Origin: Anaerolineales bacterium
GTDB lineage: Bacteria > Chloroflexota > Anaerolineae > Anaerolineales > DRMV01
NCBI GenBank assembly: GCA_027023425.1
Contig: JALVVL010000012.1
Span: 1-64,000 of the forward strand
Length of the DNA: 64,000 bases
Reading direction: 5' to 3'
A model generated the notes under the pieces. The model searched no databases, was not told where the DNA came from, and saw only the letters and a list, made by a program, of their open reading frames with translations. Position numbers and translations under genes: made by a program. This document shows, in pieces, positions 35,524 to 54,889 of the stretch (positions are counted from its first letter, which is position 1; each line of letters starts with the position of its first letter).

Positions 35524-36441
35524 TTATAGACGCGGCCTAATCCAACTAAGCCAGCCCTTACCGCTTGGCGGAGCAGGGGGGCGTGTCTTGTCAAAGGCGG
35601 CGAGCACCAGCACAACGCTTAGCATTGCCGCTCCCGCCCATTGGGTGAGGGTCATGGTTTCGTGTAGCCAGATTTGGGCTAACCCTACGCTCACCAATAG
35701 TTCAAACAATCCTAACAGCGCTGTTTGCATTCCGCCGATGTGTTTTACCCCCAAAAACAGGGTGATTCGCGAGAAAAAAGTGACCAGCGTAAGCCCTACC
35801 ACAGGCCAAATTGTGGCTGTTGTTGTGGGTAGGTGGATGGGGCCGATTATCAAAAACGCAGGCACTACAATTGCGCTCATCGCGAACAGCGTGTAAAGTG
35901 TGACAGTGGGCGCCGGCATATCCATCAAAACACGTTGGTTTATCGGCAGGTGAAGGGCATATAGCGCCGCGGCGAGCAACATCATGCCCATGCCAACCAA
36001 ATCCAAACGGTGCGAGCCGCCAAGGGTTATCATCGCTACGGCGGGCATGGCAAGCCCAATCCGCAGCAAGGTAAGTTTGCTGGGCGGTTGCTTGTCTAAC
36101 CAGAGCCAAATTGCTACGAACAGAGGGTAGAGTGAATAGAGCAGTTGACCTATCCCCGCGTCAATGCGCCCTAAAGCGCTGTAGTAAAAAAGCGAGCCGA
36201 TGCCGTTTATGCTCCCCGCGAGCAAGCAGCCTATTAGTCCGATAGGGTAGATTTGCAGAAATTGGCGCTTGAAGGCCATGATGACTGCGAAAAGCAACAG
36301 CGCGGCAAACAGCGTCCGCAGTGCCACTACCGATAGCGGCGGCAGCCCGGCCAAAATTGCTTGCTTCCCGAAAATAGGCGCCATGCCCAAGAAAAAAGCG
36401 GAAAGCAAAGCAGCGCGTATTCCCCGATTTTGTTTGCGCAT
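35524..36441 (-). CDS. EamA/DMT-family transporter
   Basis: 10-TM DMT architecture, GKQAILAGLPPLSVVALRTLFAALLLF. Confidence 0.85.
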   Translation of the reverse strand: MRKQNRGIRAALLSAFFLGMAPIFGKQAILAGLPPLSVVALRTLFAALLLFAVIMAFKRQFLQIYPIGLIGCLLAGSINGIGSLFYYSALGRIDAGIGQLLYSLYPLFVAIWLWLDKQPPSKLTLLRIGLAMPAVAMITLGGSHRLDLVGMGMMLLAAALYALHLPINQRVLMDMPAPTVTLYTLFAMSAIVVPAFLIIGPIHLPTTTATIWPVVGLTLVTFFSRITLFLGVKHIGGMQTALLGLFELLVSVGLAQIWLHETMTLTQWAGAAMLSVVLVLAAFDKTRPPAPPSGKGWLSWIRPRL

Positions 36442-36476: not shown

Positions 36477-38150
36477 TTAGCCTATCAGCGCCCTGATTTC
36501 ATCCACCAAATCGTCGGTAAGGAATTCGCCTTTTTGCATCACTTTGGCTATTTGACCGTGCAGGCGTTTCTTTTCCTCCGGCGTGAGCGTTTTGGCGGTC
36601 ACGGCGATTATTGGGATGTTGGCGGTTGAGGGGTCGCTGCGCAGGCTTTCAATCACTTGGAAGCCGTCTGCGTCCGGCATCATCAAATCCAGAAGGATGA
36701 GGTCAGGGTGCTCGCGGCGGGCGAGTTCAATGGCTTCTTTGCCGTTGGCGGCTTCGGAAATGGTAAATTCGCCCAGCGATTGGAGCACGCGGCGCAGAAG
36801 GATGCGCGCGGGCTCGTGGTCGTCCACGATGGCGATGTGTGGTTTTTCGCGCACTTGCAGGGTTTTGAGGGCGGCGCTCAGGCCATCCGAAGGGATATTG
36901 CGCTCGGCGGCCACTTTTGTGGGGAGCACTACATTTTCCGCCCAACGGTCGCCGAGGATGTGCGATTCTATGGGCATGGTGTGGCCGGTGCCGTTGATGA
37001 CTATGACGTCGTCGGGCTTGAGTATGCCGGCGCGGGCAAGTTTTATCACCCCGGCAATTGCCACCGCCGTGGCTGGTTCAACCGACAGCCCTTCCATTTT
37101 AGCCAACAGGTGCATGGCGCGGAATGCTTCTTCGTCGGTTACGGCATCAAATGTGCCGCCGTGCTTTCGCATTCGCTCGGCCAGCAAGGTGTAGACCCTG
37201 CCCGGGTCGCCAGTGGCAAGGGTGGTTATGTGGGTGCGCGGCAGGCGCACTGGCTCGGCGGTTAGTTTGTTTTGCTTCCACGCATGTGCCATTGGCGCGC
37301 ATCCAGCGGCTTGTATGAGCGCCATTTTGGGGATTTTGCTCACAAAGCCCATTTCCAGCATTTCTTCGTAGCCTTTGTAAACTCCCAATGGGCCGAGGGC
37401 GCCGCTTACCGCTTGGACGAACCAAGTAGGGCTTTGCCACATTGCCCCTTGCGGTTTGCCCAAAATGCCGGTTAGTTGTTCGCTGGTTTCGTATGCCAGC
37501 GTTTTCATGGATTCAACCGTGGGGAGCGAACGCGCCCCTTTGTCAAGGTAAAGGCCGCGCTGGCGAGCAAATTCGGCGGCAACTTGTTTGGTTTGGTCGT
37601 AGGTGCCCGTCACTTTGATGACTTTGGCGCCGTAAATTGCCACTTCGCGCATTTTTTCCGAAGGTACAAGGCTTGTGAGGAACGCCCAGAGTTTGATGCC
37701 GGCGCGCGCCGAATATGCCGCGTAGGAAATGGCCACGTTGCCGGTGGAGGCGACCACCATTTCGGTTATGCCCGCTTCTTTCAGCGCCGCGATTGTGACG
37801 CCTGCTTGGCGATCTTTGAAAGAAGAAGCCGGATTTTGCCGTTCATCTTTGAAATAGAGATAGGGCAAATTCAGCATCATCCCCAATTTGACAAGGTGAA
37901 GCATGGGGGTGCCGCCCTCGCCCATTGAAATTTCGGGGCGGCCGCCGTGAACCGGCAGCAATTCATGGTAGCGCCACAGGTCAAAGGGCCTGTTGGGAAG
38001 GGCTTGAGGCAGTGTGCACTTGATGGCTTCGTAATCGTAGCGGGCAATTTGCCACTCGCTTCCGCATTTGGGGCAGGTGGGCGAAAGCGGTGAAAAGGGC
38101 CCTTCGTGGCCGCAGTCAATGCATTTGGCAATGAATTTTTGAGGTTTCAT
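36477..38150 (-). CDS. thrC: Threonine synthase fused to C-terminal response-regulator receiver domain
   Basis: Zn-ribbon CIDCGHEGPFSPLSPTCPKCG, PLP lysine NPASSFKDRQAG, then REC HIAIVDDHEPARILLRRVL...LILLDLMMPDADG...AVTAKT in one uninterrupted ORF. Confidence 0.93.
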   Translation of the reverse strand: MKPQKFIAKCIDCGHEGPFSPLSPTCPKCGSEWQIARYDYEAIKCTLPQALPNRPFDLWRYHELLPVHGGRPEISMGEGGTPMLHLVKLGMMLNLPYLYFKDERQNPASSFKDRQAGVTIAALKEAGITEMVVASTGNVAISYAAYSARAGIKLWAFLTSLVPSEKMREVAIYGAKVIKVTGTYDQTKQVAAEFARQRGLYLDKGARSLPTVESMKTLAYETSEQLTGILGKPQGAMWQSPTWFVQAVSGALGPLGVYKGYEEMLEMGFVSKIPKMALIQAAGCAPMAHAWKQNKLTAEPVRLPRTHITTLATGDPGRVYTLLAERMRKHGGTFDAVTDEEAFRAMHLLAKMEGLSVEPATAVAIAGVIKLARAGILKPDDVIVINGTGHTMPIESHILGDRWAENVVLPTKVAAERNIPSDGLSAALKTLQVREKPHIAIVDDHEPARILLRRVLQSLGEFTISEAANGKEAIELARREHPDLILLDLMMPDADGFQVIESLRSDPSTANIPIIAVTAKTLTPEEKKRLHGQIAKVMQKGEFLTDDLVDEIRALIG

Positions 38151-38249: not shown

Positions 38250-41200
38250 TTATTCGGAGGCAAGGCCGCGCTCTTTGAGCACGCATTTTTCCAGCAATGG
38301 TGCGATTTCTTCTATTGTTATCTTAGCGGCCTTGCCGCGTTGTTGGAGTAAATTAGAGATGGCGTCCAAGAACTTTGTGCTGAGCGGTGAGGCAAACGGT
38401 GCTTGTATTGCTAGCACAGGCCTTTCTTCAACGGGCATTTCTTGAAGGGCTACCAGGGTTGGTGTGCATCCTTCTTCGGGGATGTTGAGGTCTATTATCA
38501 CCGCGTCGGGTTTCATTTCCTGAATTGCTTCTGGCATTTCAGGGCATTTGTTGAGCACGCGTGTTTCTGCAGGGAACATGGAGGTGAGCAAGTCGTAAAG
38601 TTGATAGTCATACCCGCTTTCGCCGCCGAGGATAAGCACCTTGTTCAAGCGCTGTATTTGGTTCAGGCGTTTGAAGGTTTGCTCGGCAAATTCTTTGGGA
38701 GTCGGGTATGGCAGGTATTCTATCAAACTTAGCACAACTGTTTTGTTGGTTTTGGGCTCAGAGGAGGTGGCAACTATTGGCACAGAAGCCGATTCGGGTT
38801 TTGTTTTTATTTCGGTGAGCACGTTCCAGCCTTCTTTGTTGCCCAGTAGGAGGTCAAGGAAGGCAATGGTCGGTTTCATTTCTTGCACGCGAGCGGCCGC
38901 TATTTTCGGGTCATATACCGGCACCACGCGATAGCCAGCCGGTATTAGTTTTTGTTGGTAAAGGGTAACTATGGAAGGCTTGTCCTCTATAGTTACCACT
39001 ATTGGGGTTTGTTCCGCTGCAGTGCGTATCACGGGTACTGTGAAGTAGAAGGTGGAGCCTTTGCCGAGTTCCGATTCTACCCAAATGCGGCCACCGTGCA
39101 TTTCTACCAAATTGCGGGAGATGGAAAGCCCAAGGCCAGTGCCGCCGGTTTTGCGTGTTAGCGAGGCGTCTACTTGCGAGAACGGTTTGAATAACTTTTG
39201 TAGGTCTTCTTGCGCTATGCCGGGGCCTGTATCTTCTACGCCGATTAGCACTTCTTCGTAACCGTGCGGCCCTTGCTGTTTGCGGGCAAATACTTTGATG
39301 TGGCCTTCTTCGGTGAATTTCGCCGCGTTGGAAATCAGGTTCAACAAAACTTGCCGTATGCGAATTGGGTCGGCTTGGATTAGGGGGAGGTTGGGTTCTA
39401 TTTCCTTGATAAGTTTGATCGGTTTATCTTTCACCAGACCCACAGCGGTGGACATGACGCTGTTAATCAGGTCGCCGATATCAACTTCTTCAAACGCCAG
39501 TTCCATCTTGCCGGCTTCAATTTTGGAAAGGTCAAGTATGTCGTTGATGAGACCGAGCAAGTGTTGACCGGCGTTGTAAATGGAGGTGAGGTCTTCGCGC
39601 TGCATATCATTGATGGGGCCGTCAATTCCTTTGAGGATGACGCGTGAGAAGCCGATGATTGAGTTCAACGGCGTGCGTAGTTCGTGGCTCATGTTGGCGA
39701 GGAATTGGCTCTTCAGTTCATCAGCGCGTCGCAATTCTTCCAATGCTTGGCGTTCAAGTTCGTAAGTTTGGGCGTTTTCAAGGGCGATTGCTAACTGGGT
39801 TGCAAGCAAAGTGAGCATACGGGTGGATTCGCTGGTGAATGCACCTCGCTTGGTTGACTGCACGTCAAGCACGCCGATTAGGCGCTCGCCTGCGATTAGG
39901 GGGAGGGCGGCCTCGGCGCGGGTTTCGGGCAGCAAGGGGTTGGGGTGGTGGATTTCGCTTTTGGTGGTGTCGTTGATGATGACTGGTTCGCGGCGCGCGG
40001 CGGCTTGCCCCACGGTTGAGGCGGAGCCGACGCGCAGGCGGTGACCCCTGCGAAGCATTTCCCTACCGGCTTCGCCGGTAGACGCCCGCACTACTGCATA
40101 TTCTCCGCTTTCGTCTATAAGGAACACCGAGGCGTGGTAAAAACCGAAGCGCTCGCGGATGAGTTCTACTGCTGTGGTTAGCAGTTTTTCCATTTCTTGG
40201 CTGTTGGCGGCAATTTCGCTTGCAGTCACGCTCGCTATTTCCAACTCTTCGGCGTAGCGTTGGGCTGTTTCGTAGCGCTGGAGGTTTTGCAGAGCGACTG
40301 CCGCCTGCGCTGTAGCGGTTTCCAACAACCGGAGTTCGTCTTCGGTGAACTCGCGCCGCTCGCCGTAAATGGCGTTCACGTAGCCTATGCGCTGGCCAGC
40401 TACCATTATTGGGAAGAAAATGGTGCTTTTGGCACGGAAAACTTCTGCATATAGATGGCGGGTCTTTTCATCCAGTCTTGGGTCGTGTTGTATGTCGGTT
40501 ATAACTAATGGTTCGTTATTGTAAAGCAAACGACTGGTTTGGAACTCTTTAAACGGGTAGTGGTTTCGCACTGCTTCTTTGGGAAGTTTGCTCCACCTTG
40601 CTTTTACTTCTACCCATTCTGGAGGGTCGTTTTCCTCTATCCAAGGACGTTCGTAGAGGTTGAGAGAAATATTAGTGGCTTTTTCTCCCAATGGGGTTTG
40701 GTTACGGAGAATATCAAGGATGCCTTCGTAAGAGGTTACAGCGTTCAGTGAAGCGGCAATTCGGTAAAGGGTCTCTGTTTCTTTAGAATGCCGTTGGATT
40801 AATTCAACGGAGCGGATGGTCTCAACGGCTACGCTTGCTTGGGAAGTGATAGTTTTTATGCGTTGTATTGTTTCTTCGTCAAACTCTGTAGGGTGATCGT
40901 AGAATATGTTTACAACGCCTATTCGCCGTCCACCCGTTTCCAGTGGAAAAGTAGCCGATGCTTTGGCTTTTAGTATTTCGGTGTATATCTTCCGAGCAGT
41001 TTCGCTCCAGTTAATGTTTTTTGTTGCATTGGCATTGGGTATGATGGACGGCGTTTCTGGTGATAGAGTTCGCACTACAGGGAAAACGTCAATTGGGTAT
41101 GGCCCTGACAGTTCTCTTAGTGTTTCCCGTGGTATCGGCTTGGCGCTCCAATAAGCCACCGGCTCTATGGTGGTGGGTTCTTGTTTACCTTTTACAAAGG

Positions 41201-42848
41201 GCTTGTCAAACAGACTAAGTACGATAGTGGTAGGTTTTGGGAAAATCACTTCACTTAGCGCGAGCGCTATGTCGTTGTAGGTGGTCGCGGCGTTGAATTT
41301 CGCTGTTGCTTGGTATAGGGCTGTTGTTTCTTCGGTGCGCTTCTTGATATCTTCCAGCGAGCGTAGGTTTTGAATTGCAATGCCTGCTTGGCTCACAAGC
41401 GCCCAAATGAATTGCCTTTGGGCTTCCGAGAATTCCACAGATTCGTCGTAAATAATGTTGATAAGCCCAAACCATTGGCCAGTTATGTAAAGGGGCATGA
41501 AAACAGTGGCCTTGGCTTTTAGAATTTCAAGGTAAATGTAGCGAATTTGGGGATTTACTCTGTCCCATTCTTCTATTTTAGAGATAAAGCGTCCTTCCCG
41601 CATTTCGGTGAGATAGGGGAAATCCGGAAGCGGGAATTTCTGGCTTGCTACTTGCTGAAGAACCTCTGGGTCTAATTCGCTATTTTCTATATTGGCCCAG
41701 TATGCTAAGGGTTTTATCCATTGAGGGGGAGGGGCCCCCTCAACCCAAGGCTTTGAAAAAGCACCTAAGGCAATTATGCGGGCATGTTCGCCGAGGTGTT
41801 TATGCAGGGTTTCAAGAATTTCTTCGTAGGAGGTGGCGGCGTTGAAGGCCGCGGTTGCTTCATACAGCGCCCGTGTGGTTTCAAGCGCTCGTGTGGTTTG
41901 CTGAAAGAGGCTGGCGTTTGCCACTGCCGAGGCTACTTGGTTGGCTAACGTGGAAAGCAAACGCTTTTCGTGTTCGCTTGCTTTGTGGGGCTCTCGGCGG
42001 AAAATACACAATGTGCCGAATTTTTGCTCTTGGTATATCAGCGGCACGCCTATATAAGACCTTAGGCCAAATTCAATGGGACTTTTGCCAACTTCTGGGT
42101 GCTCCGGCGGAGGGGATAGTAGGTCGTCTATGGTGAAAACGTCTTCTTTTGTATAAGTCACCCCACAGCAACTTGTGTCTATGGGCACGCCGCCGGATTG
42201 TTTTATTTTTTCCACCATCTTCGGGGGTAGATTCCAGTGGGCGGCGAGCGCGAGTTGTTCGCTGTTTCCTTCTATTGTTTGGGTTATGAGGGCGGCGTCA
42301 ATGTTCAGGATTTCGCGGACGCGCAACAACGCTTCTTGGTAGATGCGGTCAATTTCCAGTGTTTGGCTTACTGCGAGTGCGAGCCTATGTAGTGTTTCCA
42401 ATTCGGCGGCACGGCGCTGTGCTGATTGGAATAGTTGAGCGTTTTCAAGCGCCAGCGCTAATTGTTCCGCTACTTGTTCTGCAAGGCGGCGGTCATCTTC
42501 GCTCCAACGGCGGCCCGGGGTAGGGTCAACTGCTTCCAGCAGGCCAGTGCTGTTCATCACTTTTAGCGGCAGGGCGGCTACGGCGCCGTTTTGCCCTTGC
42601 TCATAAATTGGGGTGCCGCGGCGCAATGCTTTGCTTCCTGCCGGTGTGAGGGGCGCGACGGCGGGGGCAATAGCGCCGCCTTTGGAAGCGATGCCGCGCG
42701 GCAGTTCGGCTTCGGCAAGCACCGCGGGCGCCTCTTCAACTGGCGGGAGAGGCGCCGATTCGGGTTCTTCCAGCGGCGTTGTCGCTTCTGTTTCCAATTC
42801 TTGGAAGAGAATGTCAATACGCTTTTCTAACTTTTTCTTCTTGGACAT
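38250..42848 (-). CDS. Large soluble multi-GAF hybrid histidine kinase with two C-terminal receiver-like domains
   Basis: Multiple GAF modules, HisKA NMSHELRTPLNSIIGFSR, HATPase GTGLGLSISRNLVEMHGG, REC (FLDLLLGNKEG) plus degenerate REC; start MSKKKKLEKR. Confidence 0.93.
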   Translation of the reverse strand: MSKKKKLEKRIDILFQELETEATTPLEEPESAPLPPVEEAPAVLAEAELPRGIASKGGAIAPAVAPLTPAGSKALRRGTPIYEQGQNGAVAALPLKVMNSTGLLEAVDPTPGRRWSEDDRRLAEQVAEQLALALENAQLFQSAQRRAAELETLHRLALAVSQTLEIDRIYQEALLRVREILNIDAALITQTIEGNSEQLALAAHWNLPPKMVEKIKQSGGVPIDTSCCGVTYTKEDVFTIDDLLSPPPEHPEVGKSPIEFGLRSYIGVPLIYQEQKFGTLCIFRREPHKASEHEKRLLSTLANQVASAVANASLFQQTTRALETTRALYEATAAFNAATSYEEILETLHKHLGEHARIIALGAFSKPWVEGAPPPQWIKPLAYWANIENSELDPEVLQQVASQKFPLPDFPYLTEMREGRFISKIEEWDRVNPQIRYIYLEILKAKATVFMPLYITGQWFGLINIIYDESVEFSEAQRQFIWALVSQAGIAIQNLRSLEDIKKRTEETTALYQATAKFNAATTYNDIALALSEVIFPKPTTIVLSLFDKPFVKGKQEPTTIEPVAYWSAKPIPRETLRELSGPYPIDVFPVVRTLSPETPSIIPNANATKNINWSETARKIYTEILKAKASATFPLETGGRRIGVVNIFYDHPTEFDEETIQRIKTITSQASVAVETIRSVELIQRHSKETETLYRIAASLNAVTSYEGILDILRNQTPLGEKATNISLNLYERPWIEENDPPEWVEVKARWSKLPKEAVRNHYPFKEFQTSRLLYNNEPLVITDIQHDPRLDEKTRHLYAEVFRAKSTIFFPIMVAGQRIGYVNAIYGERREFTEDELRLLETATAQAAVALQNLQRYETAQRYAEELEIASVTASEIAANSQEMEKLLTTAVELIRERFGFYHASVFLIDESGEYAVVRASTGEAGREMLRRGHRLRVGSASTVGQAAARREPVIINDTTKSEIHHPNPLLPETRAEAALPLIAGERLIGVLDVQSTKRGAFTSESTRMLTLLATQLAIALENAQTYELERQALEELRRADELKSQFLANMSHELRTPLNSIIGFSRVILKGIDGPINDMQREDLTSIYNAGQHLLGLINDILDLSKIEAGKMELAFEEVDIGDLINSVMSTAVGLVKDKPIKLIKEIEPNLPLIQADPIRIRQVLLNLISNAAKFTEEGHIKVFARKQQGPHGYEEVLIGVEDTGPGIAQEDLQKLFKPFSQVDASLTRKTGGTGLGLSISRNLVEMHGGRIWVESELGKGSTFYFTVPVIRTAAEQTPIVVTIEDKPSIVTLYQQKLIPAGYRVVPVYDPKIAAARVQEMKPTIAFLDLLLGNKEGWNVLTEIKTKPESASVPIVATSSEPKTNKTVVLSLIEYLPYPTPKEFAEQTFKRLNQIQRLNKVLILGGESGYDYQLYDLLTSMFPAETRVLNKCPEMPEAIQEMKPDAVIIDLNIPEEGCTPTLVALQEMPVEERPVLAIQAPFASPLSTKFLDAISNLLQQRGKAAKITIEEIAPLLEKCVLKERGLASE

Positions 42849-43611
42849 AGGCGGCCAGTTCCTTAGCCAATTCGCGATATTGCATGGCGCTGCGGGTTTT
42901 TGGAGCAAAATGGGTTATTGGCAGTCCGATGATTGCGCTTTCGCGGAGTTTTGTGTCGGTTTCTATGACGGTTTTGCAAAGCCCGTTGCCGAAAGTGGCT
43001 TCTAATCGGGCGCGAATGATGGCGTGTGCGCGGTTACGACGCCTGAACATCGTTATGAGAATTCGGTAGGCGAGGTGGGGATTTGTGCCTCGGCGCACCG
43101 TTTCTACCATTTGAAGGGTGGTTTTCAGAGCGTAGGCGGAAAAGTACTCCGCTTGGGTGGGCAGGAGTGCGAGGTCGGCGGCGGTGAGGGCGTTGCCGGT
43201 GAGCGCTCCCAGCGAGGGCGGTGAATCTATGATCACATAATCGTAATCTTGGCATTTTGGCGAATCCAGTGCTTTGCGAAGTGCGCCGTATTGGCTGGGG
43301 CGCCCCGCAAAGTACCGTTCTGTTAGCCGTAGTGTGAGGCTGGCAGGGATGAGGTCTATATTTTGTACTTTGGTGGGGTAAGCAGCATTTTGGGCAGGCA
43401 GGCCTTTCAAAAGCACATCTGCCGCTGTGAGATTGGCGCTGTTGCCGTTGGTTTGGAAACCAATGCCCAACGTAAGGTTGCCTTGTGGGTCAAGGTCAAC
43501 CAACAGCACTCGCTTGCCTTGTTCGGCGAATGCCCCTGCAAGGCCTAAGGCGGTGGTGGTTTTGGCTATGCCGCCTTTTTGACCGGTTACCGAAATTGTG
43601 AAGCGCGCCAT
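42814..43611 (-). CDS. ParA/MinD-family ATPase
   Basis: Deviant Walker A QKGGIAKTTTALG, VLLVDLDPQGNLTLG, DYVIIDSPPSLG. Confidence 0.92.
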   Translation of the reverse strand: MARFTISVTGQKGGIAKTTTALGLAGAFAEQGKRVLLVDLDPQGNLTLGIGFQTNGNSANLTAADVLLKGLPAQNAAYPTKVQNIDLIPASLTLRLTERYFAGRPSQYGALRKALDSPKCQDYDYVIIDSPPSLGALTGNALTAADLALLPTQAEYFSAYALKTTLQMVETVRRGTNPHLAYRILITMFRRRNRAHAIIRARLEATFGNGLCKTVIETDTKLRESAIIGLPITHFAPKTRSAMQYRELAKELAAYVQEEKVRKAY

Positions 43612-43625
43612 TTTGTAAGTCCTTG

Positions 43626-46600
43626 CTATTCGTTTTGGGCGTTGTCGGTTTCAAGCAGAATTTGGGTGGTTTGGGCGTTGAGAGCGCGCCGCATTTCTTC
43701 TACGGCGGTTTGGATAATCACCATCGGGTCGTTTGTGGCGCGCAATTTTGCCGTGATTTCGGCGAGTAAGTGTTCGCGCTCGGCAGTGCGTACTGCCTGT
43801 TTGAACAGCCGCGCCACTTCTATTGAGGTGGCTATTTGGTGGGCTATTTGTTCCAACAGCCTTAGGTCGTTTTCTGTTATTTCGCGCTCGGGGTCTTCAA
43901 TATCCAAGCCAAGCACGCCGATGATTTCCTCGCGCGCCAGCAGCGGCACCATAATTACTTGAGACGCCCCTCGCTGCTTTATCAGCGGTAGCATTGCTTC
44001 CAGACGGGCATCGTGAAGTGTGTCGCGGGAGACCACTGGTTTCTTTGTGTGGATCAACTCTTGTATCAAAGGCATGTCCGTGGGGACTTTTGTACCTATC
44101 ACATCAATTTTAGGTGCATCTGGCGCTGTAGTAGAAGCGGTGATTGTGCCGAATTTACCGTCTTCGTCAAAGAGAATAACGCCGCAGTGTAGCAGGTCAA
44201 GTTTTTCTTGCACTTTGCTGGTCAGAAGTTGTAGCAAAGCGTCTAAATCTACTTCTGAAGCGGCGGCCGAAGTGATTTCGTAAAGTGTTTCAAGTTCTTC
44301 GGAACGCTGGCGGACTTGTTCAAGTAGGCCAATGTTTGCCAGAATAGCGGCAAGGCTGTTTGCCAGCGTGACAAGCATTTCTCTTTCTGCTTCTCCGTAG
44401 GCATTTGGGGAGGGGCTTTCTACGTCCAGCACTCCCAGTAGCCTGCCGCGGTATATCAGCGGTACAGCAATTTGCGTATGTGCGTTTGCCGAGAGTGTGC
44501 CTTCAAGCGTGGTGTTGGGATCGCTGATGGTGATAGGCTCTCCGGTTGCGGCGGCTTTGCCCACTGCCCCTTCGCCCAAGTGGATCTGGGCGTTTTGCGC
44601 TTCTGGCGGGATGGAAACTTCGTTGCCTGCAAGCGCCGCTACTTGCAACACTTCTCCGCCTTGCTCGGGTTTTAGGAAGGCCACCATGCTTTCTGGCATA
44701 GAATTGGCAAGCATTTCGGTGGTGTGGCGTATGGCGTCTTCAATGGAAATTGCCGACGCCGCGGCTGTGGTGATGTGGTGTAGGGCGCGATGGTGTTCAA
44801 TGTGGCGCTGAGTTTCGGCAAACAGTTGGGCGTTGATTACCGCCACTGCCAACTGGTCAGTCATTATTTGCAGAATGCGCACATCATCTTCGGTAAAGGC
44901 GTTTGTAATTTCGGACTGGATGTCCAAAACGCCAATCACTTCGTCGCCCGCTTTGAGGGGAACGCCCATTTCTGAGCGTGTGTTGGGCAGTAGAGGGTTG
45001 AAGTGGTGAATGTCGCTTTTGGAGACGTCGTTTACCACCACCGGTTTGCCCTTTGCTGCGGTTTGCCCCACGATAGAGGCAGAGCCAATGGCAAGTTTAT
45101 GGCCGCGCGCGAGCATCTGCTTGCCTGCTTCTCCAGTGGATGCCCGCACTACCATGTAATGCCCCGTGTCATCCAGCAAGAAAATTGAGGCGTGGTAGAA
45201 CTGGAAGCGTTCGCGAACGAGATTTACGGCCTGCTCAAGCAGGTCTTCCAGAGCAAGGGTGCTGTTGGCTTCTCGGGCGATTTCGGCAGCGATTTGTAGT
45301 TGAGCGGCGCGGTGTTGGGCTTCGGCGTAAAGGCGGGCTCCTTCCAGCGCGAGGCCTACGCGTTCAGTGAGGCGCTGGAGCAAACGTTTTTCGTTTGCAT
45401 TCCAAGGCGTTGCTTTGGTGAGGCGCGCTTTTGCGACTGTGATGCCGCGCACTTTTATTGGCATGTGCAGTGTGCGCTCGTCGGTTTGCTGCGGCTGGGG
45501 TTTAGAGTCTTTGGGAGTGGTGCTTTTTTCTACAGTGGTTGTGGGGAGCATCTCGCCGTTTTCCAGCAAGCGATAGCCGACGACGCGGCGGCGGCTCAGG
45601 TATGCCTGCCAGCCTTGTTCGCTTAGCTGGGCGTAGGCCCGCCGCGAGGCTTCAAGTGCTTCTTGTGTTTCTTGCAACAGACGCAGGTTTTGAAGTGCCA
45701 CCGCTAACTGGTCGGCCACCGTTTGGAGCGCCGTTACGTCCTCGGGCGGAAAAGCATTTTCTCGGCGGCATTGGATGTCAATGGCGCCAAGGATTTCACT
45801 GCCCGCTTTGATGGGCAATGCAATGGCCGAGCCGCTTTCGGGCAGTAGGTGTTTGTATGAACTCCGCACTGCCGCGGGGATGTTTTCTGCTATTTGCGGC
45901 CTTCCGCTACCGATTGTGCGCCCGACAAGTCCTTCCAAGCCAACGGCTACCCGTATGTTTTTGTGCTGTAGTTCATTGGCTAAATCGGGGTCTTGGTTGT
46001 AAACTGCTTTTAGTTCGGCGTATTCTTTGTCGGGGCTTGTTAGGAATATGCCTACATGATAGTAGCCGTAGCGCTGGGAGATAAGGCGCGCCGCCATAGG
46101 CAGTAGTCGGTTTATGTTTCTCTCGGTTGCTACCGCACGGCTGACTTCGGTTGCCGTTTGTAATTGGGCAGTGCGCCTTTGGAGCGCGCGCGTCCGCTCC
46201 TCTACTTGGGCGTTCAGGCGCGCCCGGGCTTCTTGCACGCGGGTGAGTAGTTGTTGGAACGCACGGGCAAGTTCTCCGATTTCATCTTCGCGTTCAAGGG
46301 GAAGGGAAACGTCCGTTTCGCCCCTCGCCACTCTTTTTATGGTTTTGGTGAAATCGGTGATGGGCACAATAATTTGTTTATTGATGCTATAGAATGAGCC
46401 CCACCCGAGCAAAAGCCATATTGCCATTATCACTATCAAGAAATGGATTAGCCTGTTGAGGCTTTTATCCATCTTGCGTTGGATGCTTAATTGCACCCGC
46501 GAAGAGTGCGAAAGGGCTATTTTCAGATTTGTTTCCAGTAGGTTTTGCCGTTTGGTGAGCAGGTCGTAGCGGGTTTTTAGACTTGCTTCGCTTGCCGTGG

Positions 46601-47030
46601 GATCGCGGCTGATTTTTAGGATGTCTCGCGAGATTGCTATGAAAGCATCCACTATGTGCAAGGCTTGCTTTGCCTTTGCAGCCAAAATTGGTTCAGAATC
46701 GTCCAACTCTTTTAGGTCTTGAGCGAGTGCTTGGCGATCTCCTTGAAGCGCGGTAAGCGGTACTACAATGGCCGAGGCGGTTTTGGAGTAGGTGGGATTT
46801 TGCAGTTCTTTGAAGGCGGTGAGCAATTGGTTGCCGTGCACAGCCGAAGAGGATAAGTCTATGGTGAGTTTTGTTATGACCCTGTGTTGGTTGTAGAGGT
46901 TGAAAATTTCCGCTGCTTGGTAGGCAACGAAAGCAATGGCTACGATACTGACCAGCATGAACAGCATCGCTGTGCGGCTTAGCGCTTGTTTGAGGGTTCT
47001 ATGCCTGATTCGCAGTTGTATCTTTGTCAT
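43626..47030 (-). CDS. Membrane HAMP + multi-GAF signalling protein without recognisable kinase domain
   Basis: N-terminal TM pair, HAMP (ITDFTKTIKRVARGETDVSLPLEREDEIGELARAFQQL), several GAF modules; ends ...TTQILLETDNAQNE. Confidence 0.9.
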   Translation of the reverse strand: MTKIQLRIRHRTLKQALSRTAMLFMLVSIVAIAFVAYQAAEIFNLYNQHRVITKLTIDLSSSAVHGNQLLTAFKELQNPTYSKTASAIVVPLTALQGDRQALAQDLKELDDSEPILAAKAKQALHIVDAFIAISRDILKISRDPTASEASLKTRYDLLTKRQNLLETNLKIALSHSSRVQLSIQRKMDKSLNRLIHFLIVIMAIWLLLGWGSFYSINKQIIVPITDFTKTIKRVARGETDVSLPLEREDEIGELARAFQQLLTRVQEARARLNAQVEERTRALQRRTAQLQTATEVSRAVATERNINRLLPMAARLISQRYGYYHVGIFLTSPDKEYAELKAVYNQDPDLANELQHKNIRVAVGLEGLVGRTIGSGRPQIAENIPAAVRSSYKHLLPESGSAIALPIKAGSEILGAIDIQCRRENAFPPEDVTALQTVADQLAVALQNLRLLQETQEALEASRRAYAQLSEQGWQAYLSRRRVVGYRLLENGEMLPTTTVEKSTTPKDSKPQPQQTDERTLHMPIKVRGITVAKARLTKATPWNANEKRLLQRLTERVGLALEGARLYAEAQHRAAQLQIAAEIAREANSTLALEDLLEQAVNLVRERFQFYHASIFLLDDTGHYMVVRASTGEAGKQMLARGHKLAIGSASIVGQTAAKGKPVVVNDVSKSDIHHFNPLLPNTRSEMGVPLKAGDEVIGVLDIQSEITNAFTEDDVRILQIMTDQLAVAVINAQLFAETQRHIEHHRALHHITTAAASAISIEDAIRHTTEMLANSMPESMVAFLKPEQGGEVLQVAALAGNEVSIPPEAQNAQIHLGEGAVGKAAATGEPITISDPNTTLEGTLSANAHTQIAVPLIYRGRLLGVLDVESPSPNAYGEAEREMLVTLANSLAAILANIGLLEQVRQRSEELETLYEITSAAASEVDLDALLQLLTSKVQEKLDLLHCGVILFDEDGKFGTITASTTAPDAPKIDVIGTKVPTDMPLIQELIHTKKPVVSRDTLHDARLEAMLPLIKQRGASQVIMVPLLAREEIIGVLGLDIEDPEREITENDLRLLEQIAHQIATSIEVARLFKQAVRTAEREHLLAEITAKLRATNDPMVIIQTAVEEMRRALNAQTTQILLETDNAQNE

Positions 47031-47036
47031 GGCTGT

Positions 47037-48653
47037 TTACTCTGTTTCGCCGGCGGTGAGCACAATTTCGGCCTGAGTTAGCCCTAATACGTTTTGGAGT
47101 TGCTTTAGGGCGGTTTTTAGCATTTCATCCATATCCAAGGTGGCAGAAATTTCGCCGCTGATTTGGCTCACAACCTTTTCCATCTCGGCGGTGCGCCGGG
47201 TTTCTTCCATCAATTGCAGGTTTTCAAGTGCGAGGGCGATTTGGGTGGCGGCCTGCCGTGCCATTTCCTCTTCGTCGCTTGCCCATGGCTCGTCTTTTTC
47301 AAGCACCAGTTCACCGATTTCTTCATTGTAAATTTCTATTGGCACGCGCAAGCGATATTTGTTGCTTGTTCCGTTAGTTGATGGGGATGTGGAAACCGAT
47401 GCCTCAAGTGTGCTGGGCAGGTTTGCCCATATATCGCCCATAATTTGGCGCCGTGCAGCCACTATTTCCTCCAGCGCTTGTTGCGTTTGCTGGAATAGGT
47501 ATGCGTTGTGCAGTGCCGTAGCGAGGTTATCGGCAATACTTTGTAGCACTTTGAGGTCGTTTTCGTCAAATGCACGAGGCTTGTCGGATTGGATGGTCAT
47601 TGCACCTAACACTTCACCGCGGCTTATCAGTGGAAGCGCCAGTTCGGTGCGGGTTAGGGGCAGGTGCGGGTTTGCGAAACGCACGGCGTCTTCACCCACG
47701 TCCATTGCGATGCGCGGCTTGCGGTTGCTTATTGCCCAACCAATCATTGAAGAGCCGCCCACAGCCAAGCGGTGGCCTTCGGCGAGCATTTTGCGCCCGG
47801 CTTCGCCGGTGCCGGCGCGCAATACGGCATATTCACCTCTTTCGTCAAGCAGGAATACGCCTGCGTAGTAAAGGTGAAAGCGTTTCTGCACCAAGTCCAC
47901 AACCGTTTGGATGAGTTCGTCCGGGTCAAGGATGGTGTTGAGCGCTCTGTTGATTTCGGCAGCGGTGTTGATTTGGTCCAAGCGTTTTTTCAAGAGGGCG
48001 CTTTGTTGTTCCAACCTGAGGCGTTCATATTCAAGGGCGTTGCTCAGGGCGTGGCTTTCTTCAAGTGCGTTGCCGATTGACCTGAGCAGGAACCAAATGC
48101 CGCCGTCTATGGTGGCGGTGACTGCGGCAAGTGTTAGCCCTTCACGCACCCAGATGTTGTAGGGCATGGGGGGCACTCCGATAGTGCTTTTGTATGCAAG
48201 TAGTTTGTGGGTGAGTGCATAGCCGAGCCCAAAGTGCATCCCAAGAGCAAGTGCGGCGTTGATGAGAATTTGCTGTGGGGGAAGTAGCATTGCCGCCAAG
48301 GCAACGGCGGTCAATATCCAGACGCGCGCGTCGCCGTATAGGCCGCTGTGGGTGTAGGCGATAAAGCCCACCACATACAAAATGCCCAAAATCACCCATG
48401 TTCGTATCTGATAAGAATAGGGAAACCGTCGGACAATGGCGTTCGCTATCGCCAAAAGCGTGGCGAAAATGAATATGGCGGCGAGCCCTTTGTTGCCTAA
48501 CCGGTATGCTGCCAAGGCGTTTGGAATTGCCACCGGAATGGCCGCCAGTGCAACTATCACGGCCACAATGTTCAATAGCCGCGTGCGGAATCGGAGGGTT
48601 TGCCCTCCCGATTCTTGCATTTTTTCTGGCTTTACGTCGGGAGTGTTCATCAT
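47037..48653 (-). CDS. Multi-TM + GAF signalling protein without recognisable kinase domain
   Basis: Several TM helices, then GAF YYAGVFLLDERGEYAVLRAGTGEAGRKMLAEGHRLAVGG..., C-terminal coiled/GAF region. Confidence 0.88.
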   Translation of the reverse strand: MMNTPDVKPEKMQESGGQTLRFRTRLLNIVAVIVALAAIPVAIPNALAAYRLGNKGLAAIFIFATLLAIANAIVRRFPYSYQIRTWVILGILYVVGFIAYTHSGLYGDARVWILTAVALAAMLLPPQQILINAALALGMHFGLGYALTHKLLAYKSTIGVPPMPYNIWVREGLTLAAVTATIDGGIWFLLRSIGNALEESHALSNALEYERLRLEQQSALLKKRLDQINTAAEINRALNTILDPDELIQTVVDLVQKRFHLYYAGVFLLDERGEYAVLRAGTGEAGRKMLAEGHRLAVGGSSMIGWAISNRKPRIAMDVGEDAVRFANPHLPLTRTELALPLISRGEVLGAMTIQSDKPRAFDENDLKVLQSIADNLATALHNAYLFQQTQQALEEIVAARRQIMGDIWANLPSTLEASVSTSPSTNGTSNKYRLRVPIEIYNEEIGELVLEKDEPWASDEEEMARQAATQIALALENLQLMEETRRTAEMEKVVSQISGEISATLDMDEMLKTALKQLQNVLGLTQAEIVLTAGETE

Positions 48654-51580
48654 TTTTCTCCCTCGCCCTTTTCGGGTTCAGGGTTTCTGCCAGATGGCGT
48701 TAGGCGTATAACGCCTTTTTGTATACCCAAGGCTTCTTGGATTTGCTGTAGGGCTATTTCCATCACTTGGTGTATGTTGCGCGCTCGCCGCAATTCTTCG
48801 TTCATCTGGAAGAGGAGGTGTTCGCGATTGGCGCGTCGCACGCTGGTTTCAGCGCGGCTAATTTGGTATAGAAGCAGTGCCGTTGTGCCTGCAACTTCTT
48901 CCAGCACGCCAATGTGCCTTTTGCGTAGGGTGACCCGCTCTTTGAAGTCAGCCACTATGAGGACGCCAAGCAACTGGTCGTGCGCAATAAGCGGGATGCC
49001 TATCCACCTTTTTGCCTTGTGGCTAAAGGCTTCAGGGGAAAAGGCGGCCGCTTCTCCCTCGTCAAGCACAAGAGGCTTGCGTGTGTTTATCACTTGCGAG
49101 ACCGGCCCCGTCCCGATCTCTGTCGGGGGGAGTGAGACCTCCCCATCTTCCGGCGTATAGGCGTAGGAAAAGACTATGCGCCGTTCCAAAGCGTTGTAGG
49201 AGGCTATGACAACGCTTACGTCTCCGAATTTGTCGGTTAGGTTATTTTTGATAGAGCGGAAGCGTTGCACGTTGTCGGATAGCAAAAGCATTTCGCGGGC
49301 TATAGAAAGCACCAGATTTGAGGTTTCCGCTTCGTGCTTGGTTTTACGCAGTGCAATTATCCTTTCCAGCATTCTTTCCGCGACTGTTATGACCAGTTCG
49401 TAAGTTTCTACCCGCACTTCGGGGAATGCGTCTTTCTCTGTGCTTCCGAGCAGAATTATGGTTTGAAGTTCGCGGTTCAGGTAAACCGGAAGGGCAATTA
49501 CCGATTTGTAGTGTAGAGCCTTTGCCCATTCTATTAGCACATGAGGTGGGTTATCGGGATTGTCCACATCTTTTATCGTGGTGGTGATCCCGCGCGGGAA
49601 AATTTCCTTCAGCACCGCGGCTGGTGCTATTACTGAGGGAATAGGGGCACCGATCTTTGCCGGTTTTATCACGTTTATTTCATATGAGCCGGCTTCGTTT
49701 CTTAGCACAATGGCCGAATAGGCGGGCAATTCTTGCATGGTGTTGATGGCAATATCAATGAACTCCCTCGGGTTATCGGTTTGAGAGAGCCTTAGCACCG
49801 AGCGGTAAAGGGCATTCACTTCTTCCAAGTTGATTTCTGCTTGTTCGCGAAGTTTTATGTTGTAAATGGCGATAGCAAGCAGGCTGGCCAATGTGCGCAA
49901 AGTGTCTATTGACGCCTCGTCAAAGATGTTGGGCGTCTTGCTTTGAACGTCTAAGGCCCCAAGCACCCGATCCCCTATGGAAATGGGAACAGCCGCTTCG
50001 GCGCGGGTTTCCGGTAGCAATGGGTTCTTGAAGTGGAAGTCTGCCTTGTCCGTGTCTTGGATTATTTGGGGTTCATTGCGGCCGGTTGCTTGGCCTACTA
50101 CAGAATTGCCGTTTACTGCCAGTCTGTGGCCTTGGGCGCGCATAACTTGCCCAACCTCGCCAGTGGAGGCTTTTAGCACCGCGTTTCCGCCGCTTTCGTC
50201 AAGCAGAAATACCGATGCGTGATAGTATTGAGGAAAGCGCTCAACTATGAGGTTTACGGTTCGCTCTAAGATGTCTTCTAAGTTTTCGGCCGACGTGGCT
50301 AAAATTGCCACCTCAGCGGCGGTTTTGATTTGGCCGGAGCGGGTCTCTACTTGTTCTTCCAGCGAGTAATAAAGTTCGCTTAGTTGGTCGGCCATTCTGT
50401 TGAAGGAATATGCCAAGAGGCCAAGTTCGTCGTTACTTTTCACCGGGGCGCGAATGCGCCAGTCGCCTTCGGCAAAAAGGCGGGTGCTGTTGGCAATTTC
50501 CAAGATAGGCCGGGTAAATTTGCTTGAGACTGCTATTACCGCTATTGCCACAATTGTCAAGAGAGCCAACGCGAGTTGCAGTAGAATCATCCCAAATTTG
50601 TGAATGGGCTTGTAGAAGAGCGCTCTTGGTATCTCTACCCCTATGCTCGCGTGCCACTTTGGCGCCCAGCGAACGTGGGCGATAACCTGTTTACCGGTTA
50701 CCGGGGAGACGTATTCGGCGTTGAATTCTCCCTCTGTGAATTTTTGCCATTTTTGTAATAGGGGCGACGGCATCGGCATTCCGCGCAGGATGTGTAGATG
50801 TTGATCGCGGGCCAGATACACCCCTTCTTCGGTTATTACGAAGCCGTTGCTTTGGGGTATGGCCGTTTCTAACGGTTGTAGCACGTCGCTCAGTGCTATT
50901 TCTTCAGATATGCCCACTATGTAGGCCGAAGGCTCTTGGCTGTTGGTGGGGTTGTAGGGGTAAATGGTTACAAGGATGCTCTCGCTTTTGTATAGGGGTG
51001 CGAGGTTATAGCGAAAATAGTGTGCGCTCCCGTAAGGGTCTTTTGCTTCGGCGACCTTTGCCAAGGCCGTGAGGCTTTTGGGAAAACTTTGTGTGATTAG
51101 TTTGCCGAGGTCGCTGTTGTGTAAGGCAAGGCCGTTCCATTCCCCCTTTGTGCTTGCCACTACTTGGATTTGTGGGTTGAGCACGAGAATTGTGTTGAAG
51201 ATCGGCGGGCTGCCTTGGTGGATAAGAGGTTGCAGGGCGTCAAGGATTTTTTTGCGCACCGATGTGTAACCGGTGGAACTTTGTGGCTTAGTGAGCAAGC
51301 CCTGCATGGCTTTTTGGAAGGCGCTTTGGCTGGCAATTTCATCCAGATGCGCGCTCTTGGAAAGGAGCCAATTTTCAGTTTCCTTTTCGGTAATTTGCTC
51401 ACTCTGCTGGAGTTGCTTGGTGAGCACTTCAGTCGCGTATCGTTTTAGCCAAAAATATCCCCACAGCGAGGCGAGTGCCAGCGGGATGATGATGGTGAGC
51501 AACATTAACGCTGTTAGCTTTCGGGCGATTTTGCCCTTGAAGCGGTTGTGCTCTTTTGAGCGTGGTCTGAGGAATCCCAT
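48650..51580 (-). CDS. Cache + HAMP + multi-GAF signalling protein without recognisable kinase domain
   Basis: TM-Cache-TM-HAMP (RPILEIANSTRLFAEGDWRIRAPVKSNDELGLLAYSFNRM), GAF YYHASVFLLDESGGNAVLKASTGEVG... Confidence 0.9.
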   Translation of the reverse strand: MGFLRPRSKEHNRFKGKIARKLTALMLLTIIIPLALASLWGYFWLKRYATEVLTKQLQQSEQITEKETENWLLSKSAHLDEIASQSAFQKAMQGLLTKPQSSTGYTSVRKKILDALQPLIHQGSPPIFNTILVLNPQIQVVASTKGEWNGLALHNSDLGKLITQSFPKSLTALAKVAEAKDPYGSAHYFRYNLAPLYKSESILVTIYPYNPTNSQEPSAYIVGISEEIALSDVLQPLETAIPQSNGFVITEEGVYLARDQHLHILRGMPMPSPLLQKWQKFTEGEFNAEYVSPVTGKQVIAHVRWAPKWHASIGVEIPRALFYKPIHKFGMILLQLALALLTIVAIAVIAVSSKFTRPILEIANSTRLFAEGDWRIRAPVKSNDELGLLAYSFNRMADQLSELYYSLEEQVETRSGQIKTAAEVAILATSAENLEDILERTVNLIVERFPQYYHASVFLLDESGGNAVLKASTGEVGQVMRAQGHRLAVNGNSVVGQATGRNEPQIIQDTDKADFHFKNPLLPETRAEAAVPISIGDRVLGALDVQSKTPNIFDEASIDTLRTLASLLAIAIYNIKLREQAEINLEEVNALYRSVLRLSQTDNPREFIDIAINTMQELPAYSAIVLRNEAGSYEINVIKPAKIGAPIPSVIAPAAVLKEIFPRGITTTIKDVDNPDNPPHVLIEWAKALHYKSVIALPVYLNRELQTIILLGSTEKDAFPEVRVETYELVITVAERMLERIIALRKTKHEAETSNLVLSIAREMLLLSDNVQRFRSIKNNLTDKFGDVSVVIASYNALERRIVFSYAYTPEDGEVSLPPTEIGTGPVSQVINTRKPLVLDEGEAAAFSPEAFSHKAKRWIGIPLIAHDQLLGVLIVADFKERVTLRKRHIGVLEEVAGTTALLLYQISRAETSVRRANREHLLFQMNEELRRARNIHQVMEIALQQIQEALGIQKGVIRLTPSGRNPEPEKGEGEK

Positions 51581-51592
51581 TTGTTACTCCGC

Positions 51593-52030
51593 TCAAAGTT
51601 CCCAAACTTGTTCGCCGCGCAGGATGCGGCGTATTTGGTCTGGGAACTTATCCGGGTCTAAAGGCTTGCCGATAAATCCGTCAAAGCCGGCCTCTTTAGC
51701 GCGCGCCATCTGCTCTCGGCTTGCTTCGGCCGTTACCGCCACCACGAGAGTGTCCTTCAGCGTGGGCGAGGAGCGAATTTTTTTCAACGCTGTAAACCCG
51801 TCTTCGTATGGAAGGCGGATATCCATCAAAATGAGATCCACTTTAGGAAGTGTGTCTGCATATTCCACAACTTCATAGCCGCTTGTTTTCCATTCGCAGT
51901 GGATGCCCATATAGCCCAGCAGCCTTGCTATGAGCATAAAGTTTGCCACGTTATCTTCAACTACTAATACAGCCGCGTCCTCTATTGATTTTGGTAGGCG
52001 GCGTTGAGGTTTTTGTTCGGTCTGGTCCAT
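51593..52030 (-). CDS. Stand-alone receiver-domain response regulator
   Basis: AVLVVEDNVANFMLIARLL...LILMDIRLPYEDG...AVTAEA. Confidence 0.93.
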   Translation of the reverse strand: MDQTEQKPQRRLPKSIEDAAVLVVEDNVANFMLIARLLGYMGIHCEWKTSGYEVVEYADTLPKVDLILMDIRLPYEDGFTALKKIRSSPTLKDTLVVAVTAEASREQMARAKEAGFDGFIGKPLDPDKFPDQIRRILRGEQVWEL

Positions 52031-52061: not shown

Positions 52062-52424
52062 TTACGGTAGAAATGAGGCTATTTGGCGCGGCAGGGCATC
52101 CACATCCACTGGCTTTTGGATGTAACCGTTGCATCCGGCCTCTAAAACTCGTTCACGGTCACCTTTCATCACGTTTGCAGTTAATGCTACAATTGGTACA
52201 TTCGCAAAACGTGGGTCGGCTTTTATCTGTTTGGTGAGGGTGAAGCCGTCGGTTTCGGGCATGTTGATATCCATTAGAATTAGGTCGGGCGTTTGGTTCT
52301 CCAAAGCGCTTAGTGCCTCTTCAGCATTAGCGGCGACCAGCACTTCATAGCCTTCCGCTGTGAGTATGCGTTGTATTAACTTGCGGTTAGCAGAGTCATC
52401 TTCCACGTACAAGATAGTGGCCAT
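52062..52424 (-). CDS. Stand-alone receiver-domain response regulator
   Basis: ILYVEDDSANRKLIQRIL...LILMDINMPETDG...ALTANV...KPV. Confidence 0.95.
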   Translation of the reverse strand: MATILYVEDDSANRKLIQRILTAEGYEVLVAANAEEALSALENQTPDLILMDINMPETDGFTLTKQIKADPRFANVPIVALTANVMKGDRERVLEAGCNGYIQKPVDVDALPRQIASFLP

Positions 52425-52717: not shown

Positions 52718-53347
52718 ATGTCCGGACAAATAGAAACGCAACATGAAGTTCGTTATAGTCGTAGGCGTAAAGGACAAAGCCTTGTTGAGACGGCGTTGTT
52801 CTTTCCGATCCTGCTGATTATTTTCTCGGCTTTGATTGAGGTCGGGTTTTGGCTTGTGGACTATCTCTCGTTGATAGATGCTACCCGTAACGCCGCTCGG
52901 TTTGCCAGTGATGGGTATTACTACGTGCGCGATAACGACACTGATTGCCAGACTACGCGCGATTTTTACCGTCAAACGGCTTGTGCTTTGCTAATTGAAC
53001 TTGCGCAGGAAAGGCCGCATATTGTTTTGGATACTGCCTCTGACGATGTTGTGGTTTCAGCCGTTTCGGTTGAGCATGGGGTAGGGGTGACGGCGCGTTT
53101 TCCTGATGACAATGGTTGGTCTTTGTATGGTCATTTTACTTCGCAGATCAGCAATGACGAAATAAACAGCCGGCTGGATTTGAATGCGCCAAGTACCGGC
53201 TTGGTGATAGTGGAGGTTTTTTACCATTACCATCAACGTTTGAAACTTCCGTGGGTCACGCCGTTTGTGCCCGACCCGATCTTGATTCATACTTATGCTA
53301 TTATGCCGCTTACTTCGGCAGAACCTACTCCTACGCCTGCTCCGTGA
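52718..53347 (+). CDS. TadE-like pilus assembly protein
   Basis: RKGQSLVETALFFPILLIIFSALIEVGFW class III prepilin-like N-terminus. Confidence 0.85.
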   Translation: MSGQIETQHEVRYSRRRKGQSLVETALFFPILLIIFSALIEVGFWLVDYLSLIDATRNAARFASDGYYYVRDNDTDCQTTRDFYRQTACALLIELAQERPHIVLDTASDDVVVSAVSVEHGVGVTARFPDDNGWSLYGHFTSQISNDEINSRLDLNAPSTGLVIVEVFYHYHQRLKLPWVTPFVPDPILIHTYAIMPLTSAEPTPTPAP

Positions 53348-53356
53348 GGTGTTAGC

Positions 53357-54871
53357 ATGTTGGATAGAAAACGTGGTGCATATTCAGGCCAAATGTTGGT
53401 CATAATAGCCGCCGCTCTTATTGGGCTTTTGGCTTTTACTGGCTTGGCGGTTGATTTGGGGCGCTACCTGATTGCTATGGGCAAACTTCGCCAAGCGGCC
53501 GATTCGGCTTCTTTGGCTGCTGCGGCGCAATTTCGCGAAAATCGCACTCTTGCCGAAATGACCGACGCCGCTCGCTCTATGGTGGTTGCCAATGGCTTTA
53601 CCCCCACCGATCTTGAGGTGAACACTTGCGATACTAAGCCGGGAGACCCTTATTTGTGCAACCCACCGCGCAGTAAAAAGGTGGAAGTTGTAGTAAGCGC
53701 CGATATGCCCACGGCTTTCCTTCAACTGGTGGGTATTGACACCATTCACTTGAAGGCTGTCTCTGTGGGCGAGGCCGCTTCAATGGACGTGGTTTTGGTG
53801 ATAGATACCTCGGAGTCTATGACTTACGATGCTTCGCCCGGAGATCCGATGCGCGACCCTTCTCAGTGCAACCCTGTGCATCGTTGCCATCCGTTTGAGG
53901 AAGTGCGCGCCGCGGCCGCAAACTTTACTTCGCGCATCCTCAACCTCCCGCCGGATAAAGAACAGGATCGTGTTGCGGTAGTTACATTTGCCGACGGTTG
54001 GCGTAAGCAGGATACGGGGCCTCACTTCCCACCTGGCTCTGGTTCTAATCCTACTTTAGATAAAGCGTGGACTTACAATTACGATGACGCACACAGCATC
54101 TTAAACAGCCTTGAAGTATACGACCCGGGTTGGGAATGCCCTCAAGACCTCGGTGATAGCGATGCGCTTGGCCCTTGTCGCCGTTACGATACTAACGGGA
54201 GCTATATTGGTTTGGATTGCCCTCTTTACCGCAATCCGGATTATCATGACCCTTCAACCTGCACAACAACGGCAATAGGCGGTGGCCTGTTTTGGGCAGG
54301 TCAACTTTTGGCTACCAGCGGACGTGAAAACGCTTTGTGGATTGTGGTGCTTTTGACCGATGGCGCGGCAAATTCCACTTTACCTGCCCCGGATGATGAC
54401 CTAAGAGACCATGCCCACCAACTTGCTTCGCTACCGATCGGTTTCTGCCCGCCTTCAACTTTTGCTTCATCGCCGTTTTGCCGCGATAACAGTGTTGCCA
54501 CCCGCCACGTTTACCCCGATCCCGATTACGATGCGGATGATTATGCTCGTGATATGGCCGATTACCTTGCTTGCTCGGCCAATCCGGCGCCGGGGTGTTC
54601 AACTGCGGGGCAGGGAGCGGCTATTTTTTCCATTGGTCTGGGTAACCTTGTGTTGAAAGTTAAGCCACCCGATACCAAGCCCGCTGGTGGTGCTCTCTTG
54701 CGTTATGTGGCGGCTGTGGGTGATGATGGCGACCCAACCACCGACCCCTGCGCTGGTATTTCCGACTACCGCCAGTGGTGTGGCAATTATTACTTCTCCC
54801 CAACTGGTTCTGGGCTGGACCGTGTTTTTGAGGATATTGCTTCTCGCTTGTTCACCCGCCTTACCCATTAG
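53357..54871 (+). CDS. TadG-like protein with vWA domain
   Basis: GQMLVIIAAALIGLLAFTGLAVDLGRYLIAMGKLRQAADSASLAAA; MIDAS VLVIDTSESM; VLLTDGAAN. Confidence 0.88.
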   Translation: MLDRKRGAYSGQMLVIIAAALIGLLAFTGLAVDLGRYLIAMGKLRQAADSASLAAAAQFRENRTLAEMTDAARSMVVANGFTPTDLEVNTCDTKPGDPYLCNPPRSKKVEVVVSADMPTAFLQLVGIDTIHLKAVSVGEAASMDVVLVIDTSESMTYDASPGDPMRDPSQCNPVHRCHPFEEVRAAAANFTSRILNLPPDKEQDRVAVVTFADGWRKQDTGPHFPPGSGSNPTLDKAWTYNYDDAHSILNSLEVYDPGWECPQDLGDSDALGPCRRYDTNGSYIGLDCPLYRNPDYHDPSTCTTTAIGGGLFWAGQLLATSGRENALWIVVLLTDGAANSTLPAPDDDLRDHAHQLASLPIGFCPPSTFASSPFCRDNSVATRHVYPDPDYDADDYARDMADYLACSANPAPGCSTAGQGAAIFSIGLGNLVLKVKPPDTKPAGGALLRYVAAVGDDGDPTTDPCAGISDYRQWCGNYYFSPTGSGLDRVFEDIASRLFTRLTH

Positions 54872-54889
54872 GGGAAGGAGGATACTGCT

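Follow-up and report, generated by a model that had tools for sequence, protein, structure and literature searches.

One protein of an Anaerolineales bacterium unites a threonine synthase (ThrC)-like enzyme domain with an intact receiver (REC) domain, and this fusion is real, neither chance nor artefact. From its residues, its relatives and its gene neighbourhood, we lean towards reading it as a response regulator in which a neofunctionalised PLP amino-acid enzyme would serve as the output, with the kinase of the same gene cassette operating the switch. The window, i.e., the whole stretch of DNA analysed, comprises 64,000 nucleotides of contig JALVVL010000012.1 and carries the fusion on its minus strand (36477–38150), a strand not given in the first-pass annotation. 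That annotation had described one uninterrupted frame fusing a ThrC-like domain to a REC domain, and the ORF, Pfam and the homologues all bear this out. Pfam recognised the enzyme part as PALP (residues 74–388, E 4.9e-62) and the C-terminal part as Response_reg (residues 439–541, E 7.2e-21). The zinc ribbon, the PLP motif SSFKDRQ with Lys112 and the receiver motifs VDD (443–444) and LLDLMMPDADG with Asp488 are present as it had said. The segment AVTAKT, which it had assigned as the switch and lysine region, contains the switch Thr518, but the REC lysine that is conserved lies in MQKGEF (Lys540). Two receivers are present in 6 of the fusions. AlphaFold2, run on a 49-sequence alignment, yielded two confident domains with a mean pLDDT of 88.9 and a pTM of 0.72, joined by a linker (residues 412–433) with pLDDT below 50. 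The domain orientation is thus not fixed, and the model reveals no coupling path. Within this otherwise low-confidence linker the motif P-x-EGLLxAL is conserved, possibly as a docking motif. The closest structural matches of the large domain were solved threonine synthases.

Table 1. Features of the fusion and its same-strand neighbours in the window
Feature	Position	Strand	Details or evidence
Stand-alone REC protein	52062..52424	minus	first gene of the same-strand run
Stand-alone REC protein	51593..52030	minus	
HAMP and GAF sensor protein	48650..51580	minus	long N-terminal region, probably extracytoplasmic
MASE11 membrane domain and GAF sensor protein	47037..48653	minus	
HAMP and four-GAF sensor protein	43626..47030	minus	without kinase domain
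ParA-like ATPase	42814..43611	minus	cassette member conserved in close relatives
Multi-GAF hybrid histidine kinase	38250..42848	minus	HisKA (SHELRTP), HATPase_c, two C-terminal REC-like domains, degenerate here
ThrC-like PALP–REC fusion, 557 aa	36477..38150	minus	uninterrupted ORF, Pfam, homologues
Zinc-ribbon-like CxxC...CxxC, N-terminal, residues 10-29	38064..38123	minus	Cys 10/13/26/29, 4/4 invariant in 78 fusions
PALP (fold-type II PLP enzyme) domain, residues 74-388	36987..37931	minus	PLP Lys112, S135-T-G-N138, T/S388; Pfam, alignment, structure
Linker, residues 412-433	36852..36917	minus	low-confidence, probably flexible; P-x-EGLLxAL conserved (420-428); alignment, AlphaFold2
Receiver domain, residues 439-541	36528..36836	minus	D443/D444, phospho-acceptor D488, T518, K540; Pfam, alignment
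EamA-family transporter	35524..36441	minus	35 bp downstream of the fusion

Full-length homologues of the fusion without internal stops were found in 39 of 61 relatives; of the 396 genomes in the class sample 145 encode such a fusion, as do 34 of the 301 in the phylum sample, and these fusions come from many independent assemblies. One copy lies on the complete chromosome of Herpetosiphon aurantiacus 114-95T, published with 6,346,587 bases (PMC3368417). An assembly artefact is rejected on these occurrences. That an assembly or annotation error had merged two genes into this ORF has a practically negligible probability, given the same fusion in well over 100 genomes, one finished chromosome among them. 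The first-pass annotation had held that a lack of relatives sharing the fusion would imply an artefact, and the search across genomes decisively showed the opposite. When 84,980 species genomes were scanned with a peptide pattern, full fusions came up in Chloroflexota MAGs only. A plasmid search gave only ThrC matches of about 30% identity, which spanned no more than 69% of the query.

The fused PLP domains form a group of their own. A profile of the PLP domain only, searched against 251 genomes of the phylum, gave 36 matches with at least 616 bits, every one in an open frame of at least 551 aa, enough for a receiver; the next matches below the fusions reached at most 294 bits, and no unfused close relative or sister of the fusion clade was found in these 251 genomes. 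A tree was built from 60 fusion domains together with 30 other sequences, namely 28 unfused paralogues and two ThrCs of solved structure; in it the fused domains were monophyletic (60 of 60 tips), with a long stem and a local support of 0.92.

Residue conservation was scored over 78 distinct fusions. Invariant were the four zinc cysteines, K112, S135-T136-G137-N138, E358, G389-H390 and the receiver residues D444, D488 and K540, while in 78 of 78 position 443 was D or E and positions 518 and 388 were T or S; the REC pocket, reported as retained by the first-pass annotation, is therefore intact in all of them (443, D444, D488, 518, K540). Also invariant, and specific to the family, were Q115 (Gly in ThrC), W243, Q246, S249, G250 and P254. 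Four bacterial ThrCs compared and the canonical ThrC of this genome have the segments NSxNPxRxEGQKT and GNAGN in common, which bind the substrate phosphate in the Thermus thermophilus complex (1V7C). Both segments are replaced in all 78 fusions: the positions of T. thermophilus S155 and N188 are Gly in 78 of 78, and the R160 position is never Arg. The PLP domain thus likely lacks the O-phosphohomoserine phosphate site, an assignment that leans on conservation in the solved ThrCs.

The first-pass annotation had seen a complete threonine synthase and a possible gating of threonine supply by phosphorylation. A true threonine synthase, converting O-phosphohomoserine to threonine under phosphorylation control, is an unlikely reading of the fusion. 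The top solved-structure matches speak for it, as do the intact PLP lysine and STGN motif, and the PALP fold with its Schiff-base lysine is that of a ThrC; among fusion-bearing relatives of at least 90% completeness, about 4 of 26 had no match to a canonical ThrC ortholog at 1e-60. Against it stand, besides the replaced phosphate motifs, the scores below every NCBIfam ThrC cut-off (TIGR00260, 146.4 against 167.1 bits; PRK08197, 242.3 against 303; the other ThrC models too). A second, ordinary thrC, for which a check had been proposed, is present elsewhere in the genome (G000:C44; TIGR00260, 302 against 167 bits) beside a gene that passes the thrB model (240 against 168) and encodes a homoserine kinase, and most fusion-bearing relatives also possess a canonical ThrC ortholog. 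The neighbours of the fusion are signalling genes, with no thrB or hom adjoining. The missed cut-offs, the replaced motifs and the canonical thrC–thrB pair together argue that the most likely substrate of the fused domain is a different amino acid. It is probably not a threonine synthase, and the repurposed ThrC homologue, offered as a second option in the first-pass annotation, fits best. Cysteate synthase was rejected as an identity (TIGR03844, 112.7 against 324.9 bits).

Two other genes of this kind were noticed in the same genome. A ThrC-like PALP gene follows a ThiS–MoaE fusion gene after a gap of about 400 bp, an odd pairing (G000:C9, L130:5691-7930). A PRK08197-type 'threonine synthase' paralogue adjoins a 672-aa protein with a GAF-like N-terminus (G000:C22, L128:4798-8071), which makes a second adjacency of PALP and signalling genes in this genome.

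Nine same-strand genes run in the window from 52424 to 35524 and end with the fusion and then the EamA transporter (Table 1). Neighbourhoods were counted at 40 loci from the genomes (39 for the directly upstream gene). A kinase was located directly upstream of the fusion on the same strand in 34 of 39 loci, so that the kinase adjacency recorded in the first-pass annotation is the rule. Within five genes of the fusion, any kinase occurred at 36 and EamA at 23 of the 40 loci; GAF proteins were present at 34 and ParA at 15. In the closest relatives the order GAF–ParA–kinase–fusion–EamA is conserved in full. The more distant fusion group has small RECs, and at some of its loci there are also NMT1/THI5-like lipoproteins, a protein with a Cache domain or a further PALP gene. 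Three loci (L108, L112, L116) have no kinase nearby, hence a distant kinase or another phospho-donor must act there. A promoter scan gave no informative signal (10 against 12 expected).

Several observations concern the surroundings of the fusions. In second-clade cassettes the NMT1/THI5-like lipoproteins lie beside GAF or Cache sensors (L113:4060-6114, L126:940-2876, L109:2489-3565), a possible periplasmic ligand input. An unfused PALP gene follows some second-clade fusions (L115, L118, L125, G221:C10, G351:C82), and the two PLP enzymes may act together. Upstream of the kinase at one locus (L107:4463-6144), two adjacent ORFs have the same N-terminal sequence and are apparent copies of a SAM methyltransferase (PF04672, one copy tested); the pair could reflect a genuine duplication or a repeat introduced by the assembly. 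In the window, divergent plus-strand genes at 52718-57454 resemble TadE/vWA-type secretion or pilus-assembly proteins, one of them with long TPTPTP repeats.

The receivers of fusion and kinase are related. With a profile of the fusion REC, the terminal REC of the kinases in the cassettes scored about 98–146 bits at most loci, their first REC about 34–64 bits and other RECs in the set at most 87. In a REC tree the fusion receivers grouped with these terminal kinase RECs; with about 120 residues such a tree is weak alone and was used as supporting evidence only. The kinase of the window has intact core motifs but two degenerate RECs, so that the one receiver of that group still intact in this locus is that of the fusion. 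Adjacency and receiver relatedness point to phosphotransfer from the kinase to the fusion, but fall short of proving it.

The fusion has an intact REC pocket, the catalytic residues of an enzyme-type output and a histidine kinase nearby, as a response regulator should. The ThrC-derived fold-type II PLP domain keeps PLP chemistry and presumably the binding of an amino-acid carboxylate. The adjacent multi-GAF hybrid kinase would phosphorylate Asp488, and the phosphorylated receiver would alter the activity, the oligomeric state or the partner contacts of the PLP domain. The cassette sensors might thereby exert direct control over a reaction of amino acids that is not threonine synthesis, and EamA could move its substrate or product. 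The fusion and its habitual kinase neighbour suggest a direct signal control of the enzyme, in which environmental signals toggle an amino-acid enzyme directly and not via gene expression. The order of the domains (output first, REC last), the loose domain orientation of the model and the kinase-less loci weigh against a response regulator.

A reversed flow of information, with the PLP domain as a ligand sensor in which an amino acid bound to PLP modulates receiver phosphorylation or kinase activity, is doubtful but deserves consideration. Aminotransferase folds act as sensors in MocR-type regulators. The setting of GAF, HAMP, kinase and REC is purely sensory, the receiver is at the C-terminus as in hybrid proteins, and lipoproteins of the NMT1/THI5 type and Cache domains accompany some second-clade cassettes; however, the zinc site and every general PLP catalytic residue examined are strictly kept, beyond the needs of ligand binding. 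Still less probable is a receiver whose main role is docking, dimerisation or placement within a kinase complex, with an enzyme that is not phospho-switched. The flexible linker with its conserved EGLLxAL motif would suit such a role, and the ParA-like cassette protein could organise a complex, but plain docking needs neither the phospho-acceptor nor the acidic pair, Thr/Ser and Lys, all of which are kept in 78 of 78 fusions. As a speculative extension of the response-regulator reading, the kinase cascade might directly switch a PLP enzyme that synthesises or degrades a messenger of amino-acid type, which the EamA transporter of the operon would export or import and its GAF or NMT1-type sensors would read. 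The output of such a phosphorelay would be amino-acid chemistry, not transcription or a cyclic nucleotide.

Fusions of REC with metabolic enzymes are known, but they are few and mostly narrow in distribution. The present one occurs in well over 100 genomes within a single phylum, never unfused in those sampled, has its kinase alongside and offers a clean system for phosphorelay control of a PLP enzyme; the cultured type strain of H. aurantiacus has a copy. It is also a likely annotation trap: the proteins would be named threonine synthase, yet are without the residues expected for that reaction.

Attachment of REC to metabolic and other enzymes is a described kind of response regulator (PMC5847659). 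Like these enzymatic-output regulators, the fusion combines an enzyme fold with a REC whose pocket is intact and has a histidine kinase as neighbour, and its lineage restriction matches that reported for other REC–enzyme fusions (PMC5847659). It differs in its output, a fold-type II PLP (ThrC-derived) enzyme, a combination with REC for which no description was found in the literature searched. Unlike typical response regulators, it has the PLP domain N-terminal and the REC C-terminal, and it spans a class and at least one further lineage instead of a single genus or family. With ThrC (TIGR00260; 1UIM/1V7C, 2ZSJ, 2D1F, 6CGQ) it shares the fold, the PLP lysine and STGN, at about 30% identity to the solved structures that were aligned, but differs by the replaced phosphate motifs, the invariant Q115/W243/Q246/S249/G250/P254, the attached REC and the absence of adjoining thrB or hom. 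Cysteate synthase or CapA2 (9K3C; TIGR03844) aligns with its N-terminal part and PALP domain over fusion residues 8–392, but the score of 113 bits is far from the cut-off of 325. The multi-GAF hybrid histidine kinases, the presumed partners, possess in relatives a terminal REC that groups with that of the fusion; unlike in hybrid kinases, the same type of receiver is placed in the fusion on a PLP enzyme, in trans to the kinase.
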